Positions 4,488 to 36,246 of a DNA stretch of 36,246 nucleotides are shown here, one piece after another. Source of the stretch: a virus; IMG/VR virus record IMGVR_UViG_3300020192_000038, positions 1-36,246 of that record; one strand, written 5' to 3'. Within the stretch, counting starts at the first letter, position 1. Every line of letters begins with the position of its first letter. Under the pieces are notes generated by a model, which worked only from the letters and a program-made list of their open reading frames with translations, was not told the DNA's origin and made no database searches. The translations under genes were made by a program, and so were the position numbers.

Positions 4488-4736
4488 GTGGCAGTCAAAA
4501 AGTTTACAAAAACCTCATCCAGCCGTTGGGATCTATCAAGAGACGACGTGTGGAAGGTTGGGAAAAACTCCCTCAAGTACCTCTCTGTTGGTGTTATCTT
4601 ATTCTTATCTCAAATCCAAAGTGGGAAAAGCTTGGAGGACGCTGGGCAAGTCTTCTGGTACTGGGGAATATCAAGTGCGATTGATCTCTTGACGAAGTTT
4701 TCACAAGAAACCACCTACTACAAAAAAGTAAAATAG
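4488..4736 (+). CDS. Small membrane protein after endolysin, holin candidate
   Basis: An 82-residue protein starting at GTG 4488, one base after the endolysin stop, with AAAGG just upstream. Residues about 27-44 (LKYLSVGVILFLSQIQSG) and 50-68 (AGQVFWYWGISSAIDLLT) are moderately hydrophobic and could form one or two membrane helices; the ends are basic. Phages often place a holin directly beside the endolysin, making this a rival to the three-helix protein at 3030-3350. No family is recognised with certainty. Confidence 0.5.
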   Translation: MAVKKFTKTSSSRWDLSRDDVWKVGKNSLKYLSVGVILFLSQIQSGKSLEDAGQVFWYWGISSAIDLLTKFSQETTYYKKVK

Positions 4737-4737
4737 C

Positions 4738-5076
4738 ATGGCAAACGCTCGTAGAGAGAAATACGAGTTTAGCTATCAAACGAAATTAGACGCCCTTAAA
4801 AGGGATTCGTTCACTTGTCAGAATTGCCACAAGCATAAGCGGGAGGTTGAACCGCCATGCCTAGAGATTCACCACATCGTTCCCATTTGGTTCGTCGTTC
4901 GATACCTTCCAGAGATGTCTGCGATATACTTTCGCTCGATAGACAACGCCGCCTGTCTTTGTAAAGAGTGCCACCTGAAAGAACACGCGAGGCAGGGGGT
5001 AGCCGACTACTGGACACTTGCCATCGCTCTTCTCGGGGTAAACTATGACCAAAGCCATCAGGAAAGCGTGGCTTGA
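4738..5076 (+). CDS. HNH endonuclease
   Basis: A 112-residue HNH nuclease. Cys27-x2-Cys30 and Cys75-x2-Cys78 form the structural zinc site, and the His-Asn-His signature is visible as EIHHIVPIW (H45/H46), N70 in SIDNAACLC, and the histidine of CKECHLKEH. It has no intron next to it and sits as the last rightward gene of the late block, where HNH nucleases often assist packaging or act as free-standing homing enzymes. Its final 19 bp overlap the 3' end of the leftward VRR-NUC gene. Confidence 0.85.
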   Translation: MANARREKYEFSYQTKLDALKRDSFTCQNCHKHKREVEPPCLEIHHIVPIWFVVRYLPEMSAIYFRSIDNAACLCKECHLKEHARQGVADYWTLAIALLGVNYDQSHQESVA

Positions 5077-5435
5077 TCTCCTACAACCTTGTCGATAAAC
5101 ATCTTCGCCTCATCAAAGCCCCTACAAAGCCCATATTGCCCATCTTTTGAGTCAGAGATCGCCTTGCCCCACATCTTCTGCTCTGGAGATAAAACGCCCC
5201 CTTTGACTCGCTTGACCTCCAGAAAAACAACGTGTTCTCTTGTTATGAAGATAATGTCTGGGACCCCCTTCCTCACCCCTTCACGGACTTGCTTTCGTTT
5301 TTGATTCCAGGAGCGAGTAAAAGTGTTATTCGGTACAGCGGAATATATTGATACGATCCCTTTTTCTTTGAGATCCTCTAGGTATTCGATAATCTTTTCT
5401 TGTTCGTCAATTTCAAGGGGTACCTTTTGCTTCAC
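5058..5435 (-). CDS. VRR-NUC (PD-(D/E)XK) nuclease
   Basis: A 125-residue protein starting at GTG (AAGGATAAAAAGTG). It carries the VRR-NUC signature: N-terminal acidic helix (IDEQEKIIEYLE), VRKGVPDIIF with D60, FLEVKRVKGG with E73 and K75, then SPEQKMWG. Family members are small stand-alone nucleases common in phages, related to the nuclease domain of FAN1 and to Holliday-junction-type enzymes. The GTG overlaps the previous stop (GTGA). It is the last gene of the leftward early transcript, converging with the HNH gene. Confidence 0.88.
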   Translation of the reverse strand: MKQKVPLEIDEQEKIIEYLEDLKEKGIVSIYSAVPNNTFTRSWNQKRKQVREGVRKGVPDIIFITREHVVFLEVKRVKGGVLSPEQKMWGKAISDSKDGQYGLCRGFDEAKMFIDKVVGDQATLS

Positions 5436-7816: not shown

Positions 7817-8095
7817 TTAGTTTTTCTCTAGCCAGTCAAAATGTTCTTTATGCCATCTATCTATTTCTTTTTGATTATTACCTGTTTTATAGGTTGGGAT
7901 ATCTATCCAGCTGTTAAGTGGTGGTGGAGTTATAAACATCCTTTTATACCTTTCTTCAGCTTTAATAGCATCAATCCCTTTGGCAATTTCATCTTCACTG
8001 GGTCTATAATTTTTTAGTTTATTCCATCTTATTTCCTCATTGATATCATTGAGTATTAAAATTGCTAATGCTGTTAAAAGTAAAAATATTATCAT
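7817..8095 (-). CDS. Membrane-anchored small protein
   Basis: A 92-residue protein. Residues 1-17 are a hydrophobic helix (MIIFLLLTALAILILND), either a signal anchor or a type I-like membrane segment with an in/out orientation I cannot settle; the rest is polar and charged (RWNKLKNYRPSEDEIAKG, WHKEHFDWLEKN). AGGGGAGAAGCTATG gives a strong ribosome site. It is the first gene behind the promoter at 8115-8143, so it should be strongly expressed early. A host-envelope target such as superinfection exclusion is possible but unproven. Confidence 0.6.
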   Translation of the reverse strand: MIIFLLLTALAILILNDINEEIRWNKLKNYRPSEDEIAKGIDAIKAEERYKRMFITPPPLNSWIDIPTYKTGNNQKEIDRWHKEHFDWLEKN

Positions 8096-8114
8096 AGCTT
8101 CTCCCCTCTTATTT

Positions 8115-8143
8115 ATTGTAACTGTCTGTCGCTAGAGTGTCAA
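8115..8143 (-). promoter_or_regulatory. Sigma-70 promoter for the distal early genes
   Basis: On the minus strand TTGACA (8138-8143) and TACAAT (8115-8120) are separated by 17 bp. The -35 overlaps the end of the upstream HTH gene. The stretch TTGACACTCTAGCGACA and the downstream AATAAATAA-AGGG leader repeat those of the promoter at 13026-13054, pointing to a duplicated promoter cassette that may share a regulator. Confidence 0.85.
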
Positions 8144-8508: not shown

Positions 8509-8727
8509 TTATTTAACTTCCTCTTGAGCGTCTCTGGCTGTTTTTGTGTAGGGTTCAAGTTTGGAGAAGTTTATATAACAAGAATTGGTTTTATCCGCAT
8601 TCCAAAATTGTGGACAATCGCTGCCATCGTCCCTTTGAAGCGTGATAATCTCTCCCGACTTGAATTTTCTACTCCTCCCATTCATTCTAAACATATCGCC
8701 TACTTTTAAGTTTGTTGGTCTTTGCAT
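8509..8727 (-). CDS. Truncated member of the local two-domain family (copy E)
   Basis: A 72-residue protein keeping only the N-terminal domain of the family: NLKVGDMFR, FKSGEIITLQRDDGSDCPQF, WNADKTNSCYINFSKLEPYT, KTARDAQ. After DAQ, where the complete copies go on to VGDVVI and the second domain, it ends EEVK. The N-terminal domain (VGD...GEIITL.DDG.D.P.FWN) is a small beta-barrel type also seen alone in phage proteins, so this copy may still fold. It is downstream of the frameshifted copy D and probably arose by internal deletion after duplication. Confidence 0.65.
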   Translation of the reverse strand: MQRPTNLKVGDMFRMNGRSRKFKSGEIITLQRDDGSDCPQFWNADKTNSCYINFSKLEPYTKTARDAQEEVK

Positions 8728-8744
8728 ATTATTCCTTCACAATT

Positions 8745-9164
8745 TTATATCCCGCTTCTTCCAACAGCTTCATCACTTCGGCTGTTTTTGGCAGATTTTA
8801 CCTCTGGTGCATTTTTGAGGGTGAAGTTTTTCTCTAGTTCGTGGAAGTGGTAACTAATACCCGCTACTTCGAAATCAGCAACCCGCGAAAGCATGACTGT
8901 ATTCTGTCCTCTCTCAAGCACCATGCGTTCATTTCCACCACGAATCACAATATCCCCAACTTCAGCGTCTCTGACTGTTTTGGTGTAGGGTTCGAGGTCG
9001 GAGAAGAATGTACAATGCCAGTCAGACTTATCTGCATTCCAGAAGTATGGACAACCAGTGCCATCGTCCTTTTTAAGCGAGATAATCTCTCCCAACTCGA
9101 AGCTGCTATCTCTCACAATCACTCTAAATTGGTCTCCTACTTTTAAGATTGTTGGTCTTGTCAT
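8745..9164 (-). CDS. Two-domain family member, frameshifted C-terminus (copy D)
   Basis: A 139-residue product with both domains of the local family (VGDQFRVIVRDSSFELGEII, WNADKSDWHCTFFSDLEPYT, then VGDIVIRGGNERMVLERGQN, FHELEKNFTLKNAPEV). From about residue 120 it departs from the relatives and ends SDEAVGRSGI. In another frame the DNA still encodes AEVMKLLEEAGYKIVKE ending at 8729, matching the end of copy C (AEAMKLLEEAGYKVTKE). One extra A in the run at 8785-8789 explains the break. Either a recent mutation, a sequencing error or a +1 recoding site. Function of the family is unknown. Confidence 0.65.
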   Translation of the reverse strand: MTRPTILKVGDQFRVIVRDSSFELGEIISLKKDDGTGCPYFWNADKSDWHCTFFSDLEPYTKTVRDAEVGDIVIRGGNERMVLERGQNTVMLSRVADFEVAGISYHFHELEKNFTLKNAPEVKSAKNSRSDEAVGRSGI

Positions 9165-9200
9165 ATTATTCTTTCTGCCGTTGGGTTATTATTCTTTTTT

Positions 9201-10184
9201 TCATAAAGTTTTTGCTTTCTCTCGAATATAGCTTGTTACCTTCCCAAGCATTTCCTCGGTAGCTCTAATCACTGACGATGCCTCTTTACTATTCACCGCT
9301 GGCATACCAATCTGCTCAATCATGCTTGCCAGTTCCAGTAACTTATCTTTGTCCGGTGCGAGTAGCTTTTTGCGGTCTTGATCTTCTTGAGCCTTTTTGA
9401 GAGTATCAAGTCGTGTGGCTTCTGCTGCTTCTTTTTCTGCTTGAGCATCTTTTTCTGCTTTAGCTTTGGCCTCAACTGCTTCTCTGGCTTTACGCTCAGC
9501 GTCAAGTATCTTCTGCCCGGCTTCTCGCTCTTTGGCAAGCTCTTTTTCTTTGATCTCTGCCTGCGCTCTAAGCTCTATATTTTCTAGTCTTACAGCTTCC
9601 TGTCGATCCGCTTCTGCTTTGGCTTCTAATGCTGCATCCGCCTCAGCTTTTTTCTGCGCTGCAATTCTTGTGTCGTAAGCTAGTTTTTCGTTTTCCAAGA
9701 GCTGTTCAAAGGCTCCATCGGTCATATCTGAGAGCGCATAGATACTTGGATCTGTGCCGAACTGGTACAGCTTCGCCACCCTGGTTTCATATCTGATCTG
9801 CTTTTGCTCAGCCTCGTAGCGCTCCGCGAACTTCTCTTTTTCTTCACACTTGCTCTCAAGGTTGTCACAAACTGCCTCAAGCATCTGGAATGACTTCAGC
9901 CACAATGTATCCTGCAGCTTAAAGTCTGACATTGCGTTTTTTAGCTTCTCGCGTTCTTCTTTTACGATGTCCCTGGCTAAAAACCTTCTCTTTGCTATCT
10001 GCAATCGGATACCTCTGGCTTGTTGCATCTCTACCACTTGGTCTGGTTGTGTAACTACAATCCCCTCAATCACTGCTCTCTGCGCCTCTGCATCATTAAA
10101 AAATGATGACATCTTTTCCATGAGTGTTTTGGTTATCGCCTCTGGTGCTGATAGTTCTTGGGTTAGTTTTGCTAGGTCATTCAT
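9201..10184 (-). CDS. Coiled-coil protein of the recombination locus, DUF1351-like
   Basis: A 327-residue protein. Residues about 40-120 contain QARGIRLQIAKRRFLARDIV followed by KEEREKLKNAMSDFKL, close to the pattern of phage proteins found beside RecT/ERF-type recombinases and often labelled DUF1351. Residues about 170-290 are a very long charged coiled coil rich in Ala, Glu and Lys, and the C-terminal 45 residues form a separate helical piece (DKLLELASMIEQIG). No catalytic motif. Placement near ERF and the YqaJ exonuclease suggests a structural or accessory role in recombination; this is inference. Confidence 0.55.
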   Translation of the reverse strand: MNDLAKLTQELSAPEAITKTLMEKMSSFFNDAEAQRAVIEGIVVTQPDQVVEMQQARGIRLQIAKRRFLARDIVKEEREKLKNAMSDFKLQDTLWLKSFQMLEAVCDNLESKCEEKEKFAERYEAEQKQIRYETRVAKLYQFGTDPSIYALSDMTDGAFEQLLENEKLAYDTRIAAQKKAEADAALEAKAEADRQEAVRLENIELRAQAEIKEKELAKEREAGQKILDAERKAREAVEAKAKAEKDAQAEKEAAEATRLDTLKKAQEDQDRKKLLAPDKDKLLELASMIEQIGMPAVNSKEASSVIRATEEMLGKVTSYIREKAKTL

Positions 10185-10209
10185 ATTATTCTTTCTGCCT
10201 TTTCGGCTA

Positions 10210-10644
10210 TTATTCTTTAGTAACTTTATATCCCGCCTCTTCCAACAGCTTCATCGCCTCGGCTATTGTGTCTACTACCTCTGGCTCAGCTTTGAGGGTG
10301 AAGTGTTCTTCTAATTCATCGAAGTGGTAGTTGTCCTTTGACTTTTTGAAGTTATTGCTACAGGAAAGCTCAACAGTATTCTGCCACCTCTCAAGCACAA
10401 GGTATTCATCTCCACCTCTACCAATCACAATATCCCCAACTTGAGCGCATCTGACTGTTTTGGCGTAGGGTTCGAGGTTTGACCAGAACATACCACGATA
10501 GTTAGACTTATCTTCTTTCCAGAAGTATGGACAATCACTGCCATCATCATGTTTAAGCGTGATAATCTCACCTGCATTAAAGAGTCCTTTTTCCTCAATC
10601 ACTCTAAACATATCGCCTACTTTTAGGTTTTCTGGCTTTGTCAT
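10210..10644 (-). CDS. Two-domain family member (copy C)
   Basis: A 144-residue protein. Domain 1, residues about 5-65: LKVGDMFRVIEEKGLFNAGE, IITLKHDDGSDCPYFW, SNLEPYAKTVR. Domain 2, about 68-120: VGDIVIGRGGDEYLVLERWQ, LSCSNNFKK, FDELEEHFTLK. Tail: AEAMKLLEEAGYKVTKE, shared with the out-of-frame end of copy D. The repeated VGDxxxV and GEIITL...DDG strands suggest two SH3-like barrels. Single-domain relatives are common among phages and have no assigned role. Copies C and D share their tail while A and B share another, indicating tail exchange. Confidence 0.7.
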   Translation of the reverse strand: MTKPENLKVGDMFRVIEEKGLFNAGEIITLKHDDGSDCPYFWKEDKSNYRGMFWSNLEPYAKTVRCAQVGDIVIGRGGDEYLVLERWQNTVELSCSNNFKKSKDNYHFDELEEHFTLKAEPEVVDTIAEAMKLLEEAGYKVTKE

Positions 10645-10668
10645 ATTACTCTTTCTGTTTTTTATTTA

Positions 10669-10896
10669 TTAAAAAGGGATCTCGTCAATATCGACCTGTT
10701 GTGTTATTTGTTGAGGGGCTTCCTCAACGGTTTCATACGCTCTGTAGTCTGGCCTGGCCTCAACCCCGTTTTTTGCGTTAGTAAAGAGCCGAACAGTTTC
10801 CCCCTCCCGAATATCCCTTGATGCTTTCATGGAAATGAAGTCTTTCCCGTTTTTGTCTTTTCTTATCCATGCGACGGCGACATCTTTATATGTCAT
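10669..10896 (-). CDS. Small protein ending in an SSB-like tip
   Basis: A 75-residue protein (MTYKDVAVAWIRKDKNGKDF...). It has a compact strand-rich N-terminal part (FISMKASRDIREGETVRLF) with aromatic and basic residues, a linker (EEAPQQITQQV), and the C-terminal tip DIDEIPF, strikingly like the DDDIPF tip by which bacterial SSB recruits repair and replication proteins. It is placed among recombination genes. It may be a minimal ssDNA-binding protein or a decoy of SSB partner binding. The full OB fold (about 100 residues) does not fit easily in 60 residues, so binding to DNA is open. Confidence 0.55.
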   Translation of the reverse strand: MTYKDVAVAWIRKDKNGKDFISMKASRDIREGETVRLFTNAKNGVEARPDYRAYETVEEAPQQITQQVDIDEIPF

Positions 10897-10898
10897 AT

Positions 10899-11348
10899 TT
10901 ACTCCTTCTTTATCTTTAATTTACTAACGTCAACTCCAGGCTTCTCAGCAATCTGAGACATTGTTGGGATTGTCTCTCCCACTGGCGCATCTTTGAGGGT
11001 GTAGCCTTCCTCTAGTTGGTCAAAGTGATGGTCACTTTGTGCTCTTTTGAAATTATCGGCTGACGAAAGCAGCACAGTATTTTGCCCTCTCTCAAGCACC
11101 ATGTATTCAAATCCAGTATTATTCCCAATCACCACATCCCCAACTTGAGCGTATCTCACTGTTTTGGTGTAGGGTTCGAGTTTGGAGAAGTGTATGCAAT
11201 AATAATCAAACCTATCTGTATTCCAGAAGCATGGTTTAGTGCTGCCGTCATCTTTTTTAAGATAGATAATCTCTCCCAACTTGAATTTGCTACCTCTCAC
11301 AATCACTCTAAACATATCGCCTACTTTTAGGTTGTCTGGTCTTGTCAT
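10899..11348 (-). CDS. Two-domain family member (copy B)
   Basis: A 149-residue protein of the local family: LKVGDMFRVIVRGSKFKLGE, IYLKKDDGSTKPCFW, SKLEPYTKTVRYAQVGDVVI, MVLERGQNTVLLSSADNF, FDQLEEGYTLKDAP, tail SQIAEKPGVDVSKLKIKKE. The tail is shared with copy A. AAGAAGGAGTAAATATG provides a strong ribosome site, itself formed by the 3' end of copy A, a third type of recurrent junction. Function unknown; structural prediction should show two small barrels plus a helical tail. Confidence 0.72.
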   Translation of the reverse strand: MTRPDNLKVGDMFRVIVRGSKFKLGEIIYLKKDDGSTKPCFWNTDRFDYYCIHFSKLEPYTKTVRYAQVGDVVIGNNTGFEYMVLERGQNTVLLSSADNFKRAQSDHHFDQLEEGYTLKDAPVGETIPTMSQIAEKPGVDVSKLKIKKE

Positions 11349-11350
11349 AT

Positions 11351-11806
11351 TTACTCCTTCTTTATCTTTAGTTTACTAGCGTCAATTCCAAACTTCTCTG
11401 CGATTTGAGACATGGATAAGACTACGTTGTCGTCTACTACTGGAGCATCTTTGAGGGTGCAGTATTCTTCTAATTCATCAAAAGTAGCATTAAAACCTGC
11501 TGTTTTGAACATATCTGCACACGAAAGGGATACGATATTCTGACCCCTTTCCAGGACCAGGCGTTCAGATCCACTACTTTTATTAACAACAACATCCCCA
11601 ACTTGGGCATCTCTGACTGTTTTTGCGACGGGTTCGAGGTCGGAGAAGTTTATACAATGCCAGGCAGACTTATCTGCATTCCAGAATAATGGACAATCAG
11701 TACCATCGTCCTTTTTAAGCGTGATAATCTCTCCCAACTCGAAGACGCCGTCTTCCTCAATCACTCTGAACATATCTCCTACTTTTAGGTTGTCTGGCTT
11801 TGTCAT
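11351..11806 (-). CDS. Two-domain family member (copy A)
   Basis: A 151-residue protein and the most promoter-proximal of five paralogues. LKVGDMFRVIEEDGVFELGE, IITLKKDDGTDCPLFW, SDLEPVAKTVRDAQVGDVVV, LVLERGQNIVSLSCADMF, FDELEEYCTLKDAP and tail SQIAEKFGIDASKLKIKKE give the family consensus. It directly follows the YqaJ exonuclease gene with two bases between stop and start. The consistency of the two-domain plan with changing surface residues suggests selection for variety, as in decoy or inhibitor families, but that is inference. Confidence 0.72.
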   Translation of the reverse strand: MTKPDNLKVGDMFRVIEEDGVFELGEIITLKKDDGTDCPLFWNADKSAWHCINFSDLEPVAKTVRDAQVGDVVVNKSSGSERLVLERGQNIVSLSCADMFKTAGFNATFDELEEYCTLKDAPVVDDNVVLSMSQIAEKFGIDASKLKIKKE

Positions 11807-11808
11807 AT

Positions 11809-12411
11809 TTACTCCTTTATTCTTTTTATAATTTGCTGAACCATCTCAATCCCGCGGGCTTTGGAGGCCTCGAGTTCACTACACATCTTGTCATCTCGGT
11901 TGATTCGCTTGATGAGAAGCTTTCCCATAATGTTTGGGTTGTAGATTACATAGTCAACCCAGCTCCTGCCCGAGTCGAGCATTGCCCACTGCATTTGCGC
12001 CATATGGGATGGGTTGATTTTTTCTATAAATCGGTGGGCGTACTCTATAAAGACGCGATCTCCTGGACACTTAATTTCAATTATGCCGTCATCTCCGACC
12101 AGACCATCTGGAGAGAAGCCGCTGTACTCACCCGTTTGAATGAACCCCACCTCCGTCACCCGAGACCCTGTCTGAAGCTCATACATTGCCCGAGCGACCG
12201 GCTCTAACTCCCGACCTCTGAGCATATCTGCGCTGATAAACCCCTCCTCCTGGATCTTGCCTGTGATGATCTCTCCAGCTTTCTCGAAGCAGAGAGACTC
12301 AAACCCTAAACCTTTCGAGTTGAGTACTTTGGCATCTGAGCCTGTGAACTTCCCAAGCCGAAGCTCCAACCACTCTACCGTTCCCTGTTTAAGCTCTGAG
12401 TGAATAATCAT
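11809..12411 (-). CDS. YqaJ-like (lambda-type) recombination exonuclease
   Basis: A 200-residue PD-(D/E)XK exonuclease. Signature parts are in order: QGTVEWLELRLGKFTGSDA (the Q..W...R.G..T.S.. motif), GRELEPVARAMYEL (66-79), GFSPDGLVGDDGIIEIKCP with catalytic D102, E112 and K114. This family digests one strand of double-stranded DNA to expose 3' ends for the annealing protein. It is coupled to the ERF gene by an ATGA overlap, the classical exonuclease/annealase pair for phage recombination. Confidence 0.92.
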   Translation of the reverse strand: MIIHSELKQGTVEWLELRLGKFTGSDAKVLNSKGLGFESLCFEKAGEIITGKIQEEGFISADMLRGRELEPVARAMYELQTGSRVTEVGFIQTGEYSGFSPDGLVGDDGIIEIKCPGDRVFIEYAHRFIEKINPSHMAQMQWAMLDSGRSWVDYVIYNPNIMGKLLIKRINRDDKMCSELEASKARGIEMVQQIIKRIKE

Positions 12412-13007
12412 TGCGCATCCTGTTCTATTTTAATTTTCTTATATTGGAAGTAGGGGAGAATTGTCGAGTTAGAATACTTCTCTTTTAATCCTCCGCACAC
12501 AACAAGCAGGTCTTCGAAGGTTTTGGTTTGCTCAATCGCTGAGATGTCTTCATCTTTCATCACCTCAACCTTTGGGGCTTTTTGGGCGTCATTCTCTACA
12601 GTATCCGTCTCGGTCAAATCAAGCGCGTTGATGAATAAGTACCGCTTCATGTAGGTTGTCTTGCCCCCCAGGTTTTGGATAGGCTGTGCGCCGCCCTTGC
12701 CGTCCTTTGAGCCGATGAATACCTCAGCTGTTGGGTATTGGAATGAGACCCTTTCACCATCTTGCATATTATAAATATCCAGAGTAGCCCACTCTCTCCC
12801 TTGGCTATCAGTCTCGATATTAAAGAGAGAGGTTATCCCCAAGTCTCTCATAATGAGGGTTGTCTGCGGGAGGAAGTCTTCCATCTCGTAGTATGAGTAT
12901 TTGGAGTGGTTATTTCTCCCACTCTTTTTTAAGCTCTTCTCCAAGATTAAAACTCTCAGCTGTTGCAGCTTGAAGTATATGTTTTTGATCGGTTGTCCTG
13001 ATTCCAT
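12408..13007 (-). CDS. erf: ERF-family single-strand annealing protein
   Basis: A 199-residue protein with the ERF core: HSKYSYYEMEDFLPQTT (about 34-50), LGITSLFNIET, and GGAQPIQNLGGKTTYMKRYL then FINALDLTE (105-134), matching the KY.Y....D....P and (G)...TY..RY.....L motifs. ERF proteins anneal complementary strands and circularise phage DNA, as in P22. AAAAGGGAGAGAATATGG gives a strong ribosome site just downstream of the consensus promoter at 13026-13054. Stop overlaps the exonuclease start. Confidence 0.9.
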   Translation of the reverse strand: MESGQPIKNIYFKLQQLRVLILEKSLKKSGRNNHSKYSYYEMEDFLPQTTLIMRDLGITSLFNIETDSQGREWATLDIYNMQDGERVSFQYPTAEVFIGSKDGKGGAQPIQNLGGKTTYMKRYLFINALDLTETDTVENDAQKAPKVEVMKDEDISAIEQTKTFEDLLVVCGGLKEKYSNSTILPYFQYKKIKIEQDAQ

Positions 13008-13019
13008 ATTCTCTCCCTT

Positions 13020-13193
13020 TTATTTATTATAGATGTTTGTCGCTAGAGTGTCAATAGGCATGACACACTGCTTTTGTCTGCCCCACTGGTCTCTCGGATA
13101 AAGACCCATTGAGTAGCTTAGGTACATCCCAAACCAGGTGCCGAGTACGAAGAAGAGGGCTGTGAAGAAGAAAAGGGCGTCAGGCGAGATCAT
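13020..13193 (-). CDS. 57-residue membrane protein
   Basis: A short ORF starting MISPDALFFFTALFFVLGTW inside the last codons of the previous gene. Residues about 5-30 are a membrane helix rich in Phe, and the rest is polar (YPRDQWGRQKQCVM, PIDTLATNIYNK). GTTAGGAACAA lies before its start. Its last codons overlap both the -35 and -10 boxes of the ERF promoter, which is unusual: the promoter is coding sequence on the same strand. Function unknown. Confidence 0.55.
   Translation of the reverse strand: MISPDALFFFTALFFVLGTWFGMYLSYSMGLYPRDQWGRQKQCVMPIDTLATNIYNK
13026..13054 (-). promoter_or_regulatory. Consensus sigma-70 promoter for the recombination operon
   Basis: TTGACA (13049-13054), 17-bp spacer, TATAAT (13026-13031): a perfect match to the bacterial consensus, 19 bp upstream of the ERF start. 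The first 17 bases are identical to those of the promoter at 8115-8143, and the downstream AATAAATAA-AGGG leaders also match. Confidence 0.92.
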
Positions 13194-13504: not shown

Positions 13505-13668
13505 AAAAAGCCCTCCTTATTGTTTGAGCAAGCGCAAAGGTACATCCAGCCGGTGTCTTCGTCATAAAGCTCTGTGGTCTCTTCGCCACAGTATTCGCAG
13601 TACGCCTCGAAGTGGTACACGCTTCGGCTCACTCTCATTGACTGGTGTATTTCAAGTAATTGATCCAT
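13501..13668 (-). CDS. Small zinc-binding peptide, first gene of the early arm
   Basis: A 55-residue protein starting MDQLLEIHQSM at ATG 13668 with AGGGGAGAAAAG directly before it; a TTG reading eight codons upstream is less likely. C24-x2-C27 and C45-x-C47 (YCEYCGEETT, WMYLCACSNN) form a probable zinc knuckle. As first gene behind a strong promoter it should be among the earliest made. Function unknown. Confidence 0.6.
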   Translation of the reverse strand: MDQLLEIHQSMRVSRSVYHFEAYCEYCGEETTELYDEDTGWMYLCACSNNKEGFL

Positions 13669-13691
13669 CTTTTCTCCCCTTGTTTCACTCA

Positions 13692-13721
13692 ACTATAAAC
13701 GTTCTGCCCCCCCAGTGTCAA
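13692..13721 (-). promoter_or_regulatory. Sigma-70 promoter for the early arm
   Basis: TTGACA (13716-13721), 18-bp spacer with a run of seven G, TATAGT (13692-13697), 24 bp upstream of ATG 13668. It shares TTGACACT with the two promoters downstream but has a different spacer, so a different control is possible. Confidence 0.85.
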
Positions 13722-13789
13722 GAGTGAGATTGTGAGGCTGGGGCTGTTGATTTTTTCCCTTTAGTGTGCTTTTATATTGATACATCGAG

Positions 13790-13855
13790 AGCTTTAGAAA
13801 AATCACTTGGCGGCGTCCACAAGACTATGCGAGGTGATCCTTCTAGAGCTTTTTT
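13790..13855 (+). terminator. Hairpin with T-run on the plus strand
   Basis: Arms 13790-13806 and 13834-13850 pair over 17 positions (two A-C mismatches and one G-T in plus-strand reading), loop of 27 bases, followed by TTTTTT. Read rightward it has the form of an intrinsic terminator that would stop antisense transcription entering the gene-free region. Read leftward it is the last helix of the candidate RNA (16 of 17 paired). Both uses are possible. Confidence 0.5.
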
Positions 13856-14337
13856 GCCGTTTTCTAAACAGAGCCTTGCATCGCTAAGCAATTGGAGATA
13901 TGGTTACTCGTAATCGTCTAGGAGAACTTTAATGTGAGGGTGCGACGTTAAAATACCCCTCTAGGCTCATACAGCGACCAACACACGGACTGCATGAGAA
14001 TGGATGCTTGACCCTTCGAGCTTTAGGTGGGTGTGTCCCCCAGATTGAAACATGATCTGGCTGAAGTAATCGCTCTCAATGCTATGTTCTCTCTAAGAGG
14101 GGGGTAGGGGGGAGAACGGCTTCTCAGCTCCCTCAACCGTCCTGCATATTAGTTTGCTCTCATAAGCCGAGAGAAAAGATTGCTCTTTCAGGGTGGGGCT
14201 ACCGTAGCCCTATCAAAGCCTTAAAAAACGACCCGCGCTAAATTTTTGGGAATAGACAAACCCCCGCAGGTATTGAAAATTTTCGGGGAGAAAATCTGGA
14301 GAACTTCTTATCCGTTCAATACCAACGAGGGTTTGTT
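13790..14337 (-). ncRNA. Candidate large structured noncoding RNA, about 550 nt
   Basis: The 693-bp stretch 13669-14361 has no supportable gene in any frame. On the minus strand it begins just after a TGGTATAAT box with a 22-position helix (14315-14336 with 14256-14277, loop 37) in which two positions are G-U pairs in minus-strand RNA but A-C mismatches in plus-strand RNA, favouring leftward transcription. More hairpins follow: GGGCTA/TAGCCC (14196-14210), CTCTC/GAGAG (about 14157-14173), GAGAA/TTCTC (about 14112-14125), CCAGAT/ATCTGG (14040-14060), GCAT/ATGC (about 13992-14007), a CTAGAGG-type stem enclosing TTTAA/TTAAA (about 13917-13965), and a final 17-position helix (13790-13850). Size and setting resemble the large ornate phage RNAs ROOL and GOLLD, but I see no diagnostic match. 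Confidence 0.5.
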
Positions 14338-14343
14338 GTGTTT

Positions 14344-14352
14344 ATTATACCA
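14344..14352 (-). promoter_or_regulatory. Extended -10 promoter in front of the candidate RNA
   Basis: TGGTATAAT on the minus strand, a perfect -10 hexamer (14344-14349) with the TG extension (14350-14352). No -35 box is seen at the right distance, as is typical of extended -10 promoters. Predicted start is about 14337, the first base of the long 5' helix. It lies 10 bp after the stop of the zinc-knuckle gene. Confidence 0.65.
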
Positions 14353-14361
14353 AATAAAAGA

Positions 14362-14784
14362 CTACGCGTCGTTATCAAACGCGAAAGCTTCCCCATACTT
14401 CTTCTTTTGATACCGGCAGAAACTACAGGTTCCATCTCTTTTCCCAGAAGAATCTTTCTTGAAAAAGTGGTCAGCGCGACTTTTCCCACAGACGTCACAG
14501 AAGAAACCACCCTCTATCTGGATAGAATCGGCGAACTTCGATTTGTAGTCTTTTTTAAGCCTCGACAAATCCCCAAGTTTTTCGTTGACCTCTCGGAAGT
14601 CTTGAATGACTCCAATTGAGCGGCCATAGGCGTTGATCTTCTGGCGATCCTTGAGGGTAAGGCAGAGAGACTCCTTCTTCTTCGGGAGAGCCTTTGGAAA
14701 CCGCTTTTCTTTGCAAGGGGGGCAGTATTTCGCCACTCCGAGGGAGTCGAAGTATTTGTCGCAAGTTATGCAAAATGAGTTCAT
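14362..14784 (-). CDS. Double zinc-knuckle protein
   Basis: A 140-residue protein with two zinc sites: C5-x2-C8 with C21-x2-C24 (FCITCDKYF, YCPPCKEKR) and C96-x2-C99 with C120-x2-C123 (FFCDVCGKSR, GTCSFCRYQKKKYG). Between them is a basic helical region (LTLKDRQKINAYGRSIGVIQ). The second unit resembles the zinc part of phage HNH or recombination-endonuclease-VII-like proteins, but no nuclease histidines are seen. Nucleic-acid binding is likely. It stands alone between the gene-free region and the divergent GroES gene, reading towards the candidate RNA. Confidence 0.65.
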   Translation of the reverse strand: MNSFCITCDKYFDSLGVAKYCPPCKEKRFPKALPKKKESLCLTLKDRQKINAYGRSIGVIQDFREVNEKLGDLSRLKKDYKSKFADSIQIEGGFFCDVCGKSRADHFFKKDSSGKRDGTCSFCRYQKKKYGEAFAFDNDA

Positions 14785-33507: not shown

Positions 33508-36081
33508 ATGATTAAAATGACGAGACAGCAATACCAGAACACTTATGGACAAGCTCCTAGTGTGTCAAGTCAGCCGATCAAAATGACTCGCCAAGAGTAT
33601 TCTCAAAAGTATGGTTCAGGTGTCGAAGAACCTAAGACCTTGGGTGGGTTTGCTGGAAATGTTGTCAAGAGTGGTGGCCGTGCCGTCGGTGGGGTTGTCT
33701 CCAGTGCTGTGAATGTCTTGAACCCAAATGCAGACAAAAACACGCTCGTTGGAATGGGTCGTCTGGCATCAGGAGCAGCGCAACTCCTTGACCCGACCGA
33801 AGGGAACAAGATTGCAAAAGAAATCCCAGGCATTGGGCTGTTTGGGAATAATGAGCAGACCGCACGTAACGTTGGAAGCTTTTACAATCAGCGATATGGA
33901 GGTCTTGATAAGATTGGGAATACCCTCTACAACGACCCCATTGGTGTTGCAATGGACGTCTCCACCGTAGCTGGTGGTGCTGGAGCGTTAGCCACAAAGG
34001 CAGCTGGATTAGCCACAAAAGGAGCTACCGCAGTCAGCTTATCCTCTAACGCCGCTAAACTTGGTAGAGCTGGTCAAACACTTGGAAAAGTCTCTAGGTT
34101 TACCGATCCTCTTCAAGTAGTAGGTATGGGGCTTGGAAAAGCTGGATCTAAGGTTTCGAGTTTTGCCAGAGGTACAGCTAGAGTTGCTGAGAACGCCGAT
34201 GATATAGCTCGACTTGAAAGCATATTTGCTAAAAATAACGTGGAGCTACCAGCTAGTGCCACTACTAATAACCAATTTGTGAGACAGACTGAGGCGTTGA
34301 CTGCTAAAGGACCATTTGGGTCAAAGGTAGATGCGAGATTTCAAGCCAGTTCACAACTACCCAAAACACTACTTCAAAATGTCACTGATGCTAATACTGG
34401 TGATGTATCTGCTGCTCGTAACTCACTGGGGCAATCTGTCAGAGGTGATCTGAAAAAGTACGCTACAGGATTTAAAAAGCAGGCTAGCGCAATCTATGAT
34501 GATCTTGAAAAGACTTTGGGAGACGCTCCAGTACAGCCGCTGAAGACTCAGACGATGATAGATAAGCTCTACGATCAACAGAGAATTTCAGCCTTACCAC
34601 AGGGAGCAGGTCAAAAACTACTTGAGGACTTATATCTTAACTTAGAAAATACCAACACCTACGCAGCTTTAAATCAAACAAGAAAAGATGTGGGACAACT
34701 TTTGAATTCTACCGACCCACTGGCAAGCGGTCAAAAAGCTCAGCTAAAGGCTATTTATGGTGCTATTGAGTCAGACTTAAAGAATGTGGCAGATGCTGGT
34801 AATCCAGCTCCAAACCCACTCATAGCAAAAGCCCCAGCCACAAACCCACTTATGGCAGAAGCTCAGAAGTATGGAAGTGCTGAGGAGTTTATGGGAGAAG
34901 TAAAGAATAGAGTAGATAAGGTATGGAGACTTGCTGGAAATGAAGCCTTAGATATATCAGTTGTTGGATCTACTGCTAGAGGAAAATTAATACCAAACGA
35001 CTTAGATATACTTATTACTCCAAAGAATAAGTTAGACCCACTTACTCCAGATAAGCTAAAAACTAGAACAGAACTTACAAAAGTGTTTAAAGATGAGATA
35101 AGAGACTTATTCCCAGACAAAAAGATTCACATTATTCTTGGAGAGTTTGATCCTACTCGAGGACCCAAATCCCAACTCGCCGACGTCTACAACCAAGCTA
35201 CCCAAGCCAAACCTATTACCGATATACTACAACCAAAAAGTGCCGCCAATCCAGATATTGCAGCAGCGTTAAAAACTAAAGCTGAAATTGATGCAAAATG
35301 GAATGAGTTTAGAAAATTGATGAATAAGCAAGAAGGTAAAAATATCTTCTCTGATGTGACCGATATTGAGGACATTGTACCAAGAATATACAAGCCTAAT
35401 AACGCCTCAAGTATCAACAGACTCAAACAGTTCACAAACCCAGCCACGTTCAAAGAGTTAGGCGACACACTTATTACTCAGATTGTGAATAGTAGCGTAA
35501 ATCAACGAACTGGACTGATTGATCCTCTTAAGTGGAAAAACGTACTTGCTAAGTGGGATACACCAACGCTTCGAGCTGCTCTTGGTGATGATGGATTAGC
35601 TAGAATTGAGGCTCTGAGCAAAACAATTGATGATGCTGGGTTTTCTCAGAACATGATTACCAATTCATCTAAGGCATACGCCGGATCACAAACAGCTATG
35701 CTAGGAAGTGCGGCAGTTGGTGGTAGTTCACTCGTAGGCTCAATCTTAACGCTTAATCCTGTGCCTATCTTGTCATATCTGGGAGTCAATGCCTTAGGAA
35801 GTGCTATCTTTGGAAGTAATGCAGGGAGAAGTGTAGTATTTGGAACGGCTAAGATGCCTGGATTAGGAAAGTTCGGATCTGGGGCTAAAAGCGTATTCTC
35901 AAAATCTTACAATCTTGGAAAAGTAGGTAGACTTATTCCCTCGAACTCCACGGAAAAAGAGCCAACGCAACCATCAAGACAACAACTATTAGAGAGAGAA
36001 CGTAAGGATCTATCATATCCTCCTATTATACGACCTACACCACCAGTAAAGCCACAGAAGCTGACAACGGGGTCGTACTAA
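33508..36081 (+). CDS. Large virion/ejection protein with nucleotidyltransferase-like domain
   Basis: An 857-residue protein. N-terminus has a doubled motif (IKMTRQQYQNTYG at 2-14, IKMTRQEYSQKYG at 24-36); then Ala/Gly-rich helices (about 45-225). Residues about 450-555 hold a polymerase-beta-superfamily nucleotidyltransferase signature: VVGSTARGKLIPNDLDILI with G487, S488, D498, D500. The usual third carboxylate strand reads KKIHIIL with H541. It is inserted between SAEEFM and SQLADVYNQA, a linker pair common in phage polyvalent proteins. Near the C-terminus about 35 residues are membrane-like (AMLGSAAVGGSSLVGSIL, VPILSYLGVNALGSAIFG). Virion location inferred from gene order; an injected effector is possible. 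Confidence 0.6.
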   Translation: MIKMTRQQYQNTYGQAPSVSSQPIKMTRQEYSQKYGSGVEEPKTLGGFAGNVVKSGGRAVGGVVSSAVNVLNPNADKNTLVGMGRLASGAAQLLDPTEGNKIAKEIPGIGLFGNNEQTARNVGSFYNQRYGGLDKIGNTLYNDPIGVAMDVSTVAGGAGALATKAAGLATKGATAVSLSSNAAKLGRAGQTLGKVSRFTDPLQVVGMGLGKAGSKVSSFARGTARVAENADDIARLESIFAKNNVELPASATTNNQFVRQTEALTAKGPFGSKVDARFQASSQLPKTLLQNVTDANTGDVSAARNSLGQSVRGDLKKYATGFKKQASAIYDDLEKTLGDAPVQPLKTQTMIDKLYDQQRISALPQGAGQKLLEDLYLNLENTNTYAALNQTRKDVGQLLNSTDPLASGQKAQLKAIYGAIESDLKNVADAGNPAPNPLIAKAPATNPLMAEAQKYGSAEEFMGEVKNRVDKVWRLAGNEALDISVVGSTARGKLIPNDLDILITPKNKLDPLTPDKLKTRTELTKVFKDEIRDLFPDKKIHIILGEFDPTRGPKSQLADVYNQATQAKPITDILQPKSAANPDIAAALKTKAEIDAKWNEFRKLMNKQEGKNIFSDVTDIEDIVPRIYKPNNASSINRLKQFTNPATFKELGDTLITQIVNSSVNQRTGLIDPLKWKNVLAKWDTPTLRAALGDDGLARIEALSKTIDDAGFSQNMITNSSKAYAGSQTAMLGSAAVGGSSLVGSILTLNPVPILSYLGVNALGSAIFGSNAGRSVVFGTAKMPGLGKFGSGAKSVFSKSYNLGKVGRLIPSNSTEKEPTQPSRQQLLERERKDLSYPPIIRPTPPVKPQKLTTGSY

Positions 36082-36246
36082 TGGCAGACTACATTAAATC
36101 AGTCGATAAACCGCTTGTCCATGGCTTGGTTGTGGTCAACCCTGACGGCACATCCATCACTGGTGGGGCAACCTCTGGAGTGGCCGCCTTTTCTGATTCT
36201 GGAAGCGTAGATCGAAAGGGCTTAGTCGACATCGACAGACACGTTC
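36028..36246. repeat. Terminal direct repeat, right copy
   Basis: Right copy of the 219-bp overlap with 1-219, one silent difference (C at 36155). It includes the end of the 857-residue gene and the first codons of the fibre gene. Confidence 0.95.
36081..36246 (+). CDS. 5' end of the fibre gene repeated at the window end (partial)
   Basis: Codons 1-55 of the repeat-containing fibre gene at 54-1391, cut by the end of the window. It is the same gene met again through the circular overlap, not a second locus. Its ATG overlaps the upstream TAA. Confidence 0.9.
   Translation, partial: MADYIKSVDKPLVHGLVVVNPDGTSITGGATSGVAAFSDSGSVDRKGLVDIDRHV

Follow-up and report, generated by a model that had tools for sequence, protein, structure and literature searches.

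The window analysed here is the whole stretch of 36,246 nt, a phage genome that carries a direct repeat at its termini (1-219 and 36028-36246; 219 nt, 218 of them identical). Because of this repeat the genome is probably complete, with a length of about 36,027 bp, and circularly permuted or circular. The plus strand holds the late genes, which run from GroES (14865) to the terminase, capsid and tail genes and round to about 5 kb. The early genes occupy the minus strand from 14784 down to 5058, and include an Erf-like annealing protein (12408-13007, minus strand; Erf by both Pfam and PHROGs), a YqaJ exonuclease (11809-12411) and a VRR-NUC protein (5058-5435). The labels 'early' and 'late' are our reading of the gene content. 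Five neighbouring paralogues (8509-11806, minus strand) encode proteins that start with MTKPDNLKVGDMFRV or similar, and among the four that were aligned the identity to the first copy is 60-64%. The start signal AAGGACTAACCTATGACAGAC, or a near variant, is common to many small early genes, both in the window and in two mosaic relatives described below (L010 and L011).

One gene into the early arm lies a gap, 13693-14361; the original prediction had singled out 13669-14361 as the only long gene-free region of the genome. This is borne out: the gap is 669 nt long, threefold longer than every other intergenic stretch of the window, the next longest being 203, 172 and 114 nt. It was also said to hold no supportable ORF, and the frames that lie wholly inside it are indeed at most 49 amino acids long and lack a good Shine-Dalgarno (SD) sequence; none of the gap frames tested has a PHROG match. 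The covariance models of Rfam 15 give zero matches at gathering score on either strand of the whole window, and within the gap only chance hits to miRNA models (E 0.76-4.5). ARAGORN finds no tRNA or tmRNA in the window, hence there is no tRNA island, and no tandem repeats, iterons or DnaA boxes were found in the gap. A single homologue of the gap was found, in L001 (IMG/VR 3300020213_000616). The features discussed below are these:

14344-14352, minus strand: extended -10 promoter box TGGTATAAT, the only TGNTATAAT in the window, identical in L001
13722-14340, minus strand: candidate RNA gene of about 600 nt, proposed from the lack of genes and the fold z-score
14256-14336, minus strand: 5′ hairpin with a helix of 22 positions, the strongest in the genome
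14278-14314, minus strand: apical loop of this hairpin with UCCAGAUUUUCUCCCC, antisense to early-gene ribosome-binding sites
14171-14185, minus strand: second stretch complementary to the ribosome-binding site of gene 13669 (87% of 15 nt; inverted repeat I3)
13787-13853: 3′ hairpin, better on the plus strand and then followed by T6, a possible plus-strand terminator
13692-13721, minus strand: sigma-70 promoter TTGACA-18-TATAGT of the next operon (11 of 12 consensus positions)
13664-13679, minus strand: ribosome-binding site and ATG (13669) of the downstream gene, the proposed target in cis or trans (rank 1 of 54)
12994-13054, minus strand: promoter TTGACA-17-TATAAT (13054-13026; 12 of 12) and ribosome-binding site of the Erf-like gene, loop-target rank 2 of 54
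8086-8143, minus strand: promoter (8143-8115; 11 of 12) and ribosome-binding site of gene 8095, a weak third loop target (rank 3)

Several features that point to an RNA lie at the upstream end of the gap. A TGNTATAAT box had been noticed in front of a long helix, and it is there, as TGGTATAAT at 14352-14344 of the minus strand; it is unique in the window, in which 0.85 occurrences are expected by chance, and there is no good -35 element at 17 nt from it. A candidate RNA would start at about 14338, just behind this box. The helix (14256-14277 paired with 14315-14336) begins a few nucleotides past the box, just where such an RNA would start, and is the best in the whole 36-kb genome. Its score of 31.9 on the minus strand is equalled by none of 100 shuffles, and the plus strand reaches 26.2, in agreement with the earlier remark that pairs which are G-U on the minus strand are A-C mismatches on the plus strand. 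The paired part of the hairpin is unchanged in L001, and a model of the hairpin (R1) matches only the window and L001. As a sequence feature, the 5′ hairpin is solid.

At the other end of the gap the picture is more mixed. The predicted helix of 17 positions is present (13787-13853), within a stretch identical in L001, but it pairs better in the plus-strand sense, with a score of 27.0 there and 22.9 on the minus strand. The two helices thus disagree on strand, and since T6 follows it on the plus strand, the 3′ helix could be a plus-strand terminator. No minus-strand terminator was found inside the gap. Its 3′ border is formed by the predicted promoter at 13721-13692, which is a separate promoter of the downstream operon. 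In L001 both of its hexamers are intact, while the spacer is substituted at several positions and has gone from 18 to 17 nt, as one would expect of a functional promoter. It is one of three strong early sigma-70 promoters with TTGACACT, the others being those of the Erf-like gene and gene 8095; all three are kept in L001, and two of them have TTGACACTCTAGCGACA in common. With a candidate promoter before the gap and the promoter of the next operon behind it, the layout is that of an independent RNA gene.

What such an RNA might do is suggested by its apical loop. In a repeat search, 16 nt within the loop (14285-14300) proved to be 88% complementary to the SD and start codon of gene 13669 (13664-13679). 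When duplexes were computed with the starts of 54 genes, the whole RNA ranked gene 13669 first (-26.0 kcal/mol, p 0.03 against shuffled RNA). The 37-nt loop alone has gene 13669, the Erf-like gene 13007 and gene 8095 as its top three, each of which follows one of the three strong TTGACACT promoters. In a comparison with 1000 shuffled loops the duplex with gene 13669 (-24.6) has p 0.004, that with the Erf-like gene (-20.7) p 0.003 and that with gene 8095 p 0.047, values to be read in the light of targets picked post hoc, from a hypothesis that arose from inspection. No shuffled loop in 1000 matches the joint duplex sum. In 31 of 1000 shuffles these three genes again take the first three places, as their starts, which have strong SDs, attract shuffled loops too (ranks 1, 3 and 4). 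In a genome-wide scan by joint score the loop comes third, with one locus antisense to the start of GroES and another inside a gene ahead of it. The pairing with gene 13669 comprises 10 contiguous pairs plus 4, but the predicted fold of the loop already engages part of CUCCCC in internal pairs. L001 has an identical loop and identical SDs at genes 13669 and 13007 and is therefore uninformative on the pairing; at gene 8095 its SD has one G to A change.

What can be read directly from the sequence is the gap with its hairpin, the promoter of the downstream operon and the complementarity of the loop to the gene starts. We consider it somewhat better than an even bet that the gap is a transcribed RNA gene. 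For what the RNA does, we tentatively propose the following. The gap would hold an RNA gene of its own on the early (minus) strand, transcribed from just behind TGGTATAAT. The 22-position hairpin would shield the 5′ end of the RNA and display its C-rich loop, and the UCCAGAUUUUCUCCCC of this loop would pair with the SD and start of gene 13669 and of the Erf-like gene 13007. Translation of early genes may thereby be kept down in trans, or in cis on messages that read through from the RNA promoter, and the promoter at 13721-13692 would yield an mRNA of the downstream operon that lacks the RNA. The proposal as a whole, an independent early-strand RNA with a C-rich loop against ribosome-binding sites in the manner of RNAIII, is one that we hold to be possible but doubtful, and its mechanistic part should be treated as a lead, at best no surer than the whole.

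Two known systems illustrate how such an RNA could work. RNAIII of Staphylococcus aureus is a regulatory RNA of 514 nt whose C-rich hairpin loops pair with the Shine-Dalgarno regions of several mRNAs (PMC2837412), and our candidate resembles it in being several hundred nucleotides long and in setting a C-rich loop against SDs, here as a prediction from sequence. Unlike RNAIII, the candidate is phage-borne, and by Rfam the two have no sequence match. RNAIII additionally encodes a peptide. The alphaproteobacterial anti-SD sRNAs (alpha-r14/cuckoo) carry an anti-SD motif in unpaired regions of hairpins (PMC10746234), and the candidate would likewise display such a motif in a hairpin loop. These sRNAs, however, have three hairpins with an identical CCUCCUCCC, whereas here there is one clear loop with UUUUCUCCCC; the candidate is also much longer and its complementarity extends to the start codon.

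Comparison with L001 is the only view that we have of how the gap evolves. Those structural genes of L001 that could be compared share nothing detectable with those of the window, so the early block with the gap is a module common to both phages, and the pattern points to a recent exchange of this module. Within the early block, gap included, most genes are 96-100% identical. Two of the MTKPDNLKVGDMFRV paralogues stand apart, with 74-79% DNA identity beside most neighbours at 97-100%, which suggests rapid diversification or recombination. The gap itself (13693-14361) is 96.4% identical, with 24 substitutions and 3 single-base indels, a divergence of 3.6% as against about 0.7% at third codon positions of the adjacent genes; this faster divergence weighs against the RNA gene. 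The changes are clustered: one cluster falls within 38 nt (13972-14009), four changes lie within 6 nt (13906-13911) and several are in the promoter spacer. Two long stretches are unchanged, one of 162 nt (13744-13905) and one of 130 nt (14256-14385). In a test limited to this one homologue, the 21 substitutions in the RNA part neither avoid paired sites nor show an excess of kept pairs on either strand; as they are blind to the predicted fold, a large global fold is unproven. A double change from C-G to A-U separates L001 from the window at 13743 and about 13708, and we count it as weak because one side lies in the spacer of the downstream promoter.

Further homologues of the gap were sought by several routes. 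A DNA search of the phage collection gave chance matches only, even at E 10, and with the zinc-ribbon protein as bait nothing was found in genome contigs or among GenBank phages. Baits made from the Erf-like protein and from DNA patterns of the conserved 3′ block recovered L001 and nothing else but L008, a phage that is unrelated and whose Erf is 33% identical, and L003, found with the terminase as bait, is a fragment that stops short of the gap. The MTKPDNLKVGDMFRV early protein family did lead to mosaic relatives (L010, L011, L013 and L014), in none of which the RNA or hairpin of the window is present. These relatives have other recombination genes, RecT- and RusA-like by eye in L010.

L010 nevertheless has a gap of its own near the late/early border, 612 nt without genes (4541-5152, plus strand), with a sequence unrelated to that of the window's gap. 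The z-score of its fold is -3.5 for the early strand against -1.4 for the opposite one, and it contains a strong hairpin (4702-4754) reached by none of 100 shuffles. The loop of this hairpin, TTGTTCGTT, matches an upstream AACGAACAA over 9 nt (4674 and 4726), a possible pseudoknot. GAAA tetraloops can also be seen in this gap by eye, and no Rfam family reaches its gathering score here. The gap of L010 is a second structured RNA candidate, arguably better than that of the window. L011 has a gap of 540 nt at the late/early border, without clear excess structure. Soon past the border in L011 there is a terminator-like hairpin with T6 (8886-8970, plus strand), which has a weak, sub-gathering score as a Phe leader (E 0.028) and is possibly an attenuator. 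Neither L010 nor L011 has a match comparable to that of the window's loop at the start of its first early gene. Gaps at this place, the base of the early arm, thus recur in the group, and two types look RNA-like; another reading is that of a habitual control region.

This is the main alternative to an RNA gene, and a serious one that we nonetheless judge short of probable: an early control region at the base of the early arm, with promoters, operator sites and terminator hairpins and no RNA gene. The 3′ helix and its T6 would then be a plus-strand terminator, and the 5′ helix possibly another. There is a promoter at the downstream end of the gap, the 3′ helix and T6 favour the plus strand, the substitutions disregard the fold, and the L011 gap indicates that such gaps need not hold an RNA. 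Against this, a phage control region of 640 nt would be long, the 5′ helix, placed immediately after a -10 box, favours the minus strand, and about 600 nt have been kept with changes that, apart from the clusters, are few and scattered. Of the original prediction, the minus-strand RNA gene therefore still gives the best reading, by virtue of the box, the 5′ hairpin, the separate downstream promoter and the gap in L010; the single large RNA lacks support.

Such an RNA had been envisaged as large and structured, like ROOL and GOLLD in size and phage setting, and rich in inverted repeats. Structure beyond chance is present, but only moderately so: over 13722-14340 the fold lies 3.4 standard deviations below shuffled sequence on the minus strand (z -3.4) and 2.8 on the plus strand (z -2.8). 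Among 300-nt windows of the minus strand the 5′ third of the gap stands out (z -3.6, rank 6 of 480 genome-wide), the five windows with lower z-scores all being in coding sequence, while the middle and 3′ parts fold like shuffled sequence. The size class and phage setting are those of ROOL and GOLLD (PMC12286853). In contrast to these RNAs, the gap has no covariance-model match and no tRNA island, and its structure is unsupported over the whole length. With Rfam negative on both strands, neither ROOL nor GOLLD can be recognised in it, and OLE, tmRNA and the rest of Rfam give no match either. It could belong to a new class, a functional analogue that acts as scaffold, cage or protein-binding RNA, in which case the match between loop and ribosome-binding sites would be due to chance. 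Size, setting, whole-region fold and the analogous gap in L010 speak for this; the missing Rfam match and tRNA island, the shuffle-like middle and 3′ parts and the lack of support from the substitutions make it unlikely.

An origin of replication is less probable still, whether plain or primed by transcription. ColE1 RNAII, a preprimer of about 550 nt, likewise consists of a promoter followed by a structured transcript, and the cumulative GC skew of the window has its minimum at 12.6-15 kb. However, the skew tracks the switch of gene strand, the gap shows no origin hallmarks such as iterons, tandem repeats or DnaA boxes, and no initiator was recognised among the proteins searched, so that we give this reading little credence. 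Missed short genes or a decayed gene are the least credible explanation, since short open frames do exist in the gap but have no good SD and no PHROG matches, and 1-nt indels separate the window from L001.

For the early-strand RNA gene that we favour, a broader reading may be ventured, which spans the type of the window and L001 and that of L010, with their unrelated sequences. Mosaic uncultured phages might keep a fast-evolving regulatory RNA gene of 500-650 nt near the base of the early arm, and in the window type the loop would mimic the antisense of the early translation-start consensus and so throttle several early operons. This is speculation, and we would be surprised if all of it were correct.

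Should there be no transcript, what remains is an ordinary control region. To our knowledge, large phage ncRNAs have rarely been given a mechanism, and for ROOL and GOLLD one is still lacking. For the candidate phage RNA described here we propose a concrete base-pairing target, and the presence of a structured candidate at the same place in L010 suggests that the site beside the early promoter may be a hot spot for RNA genes.
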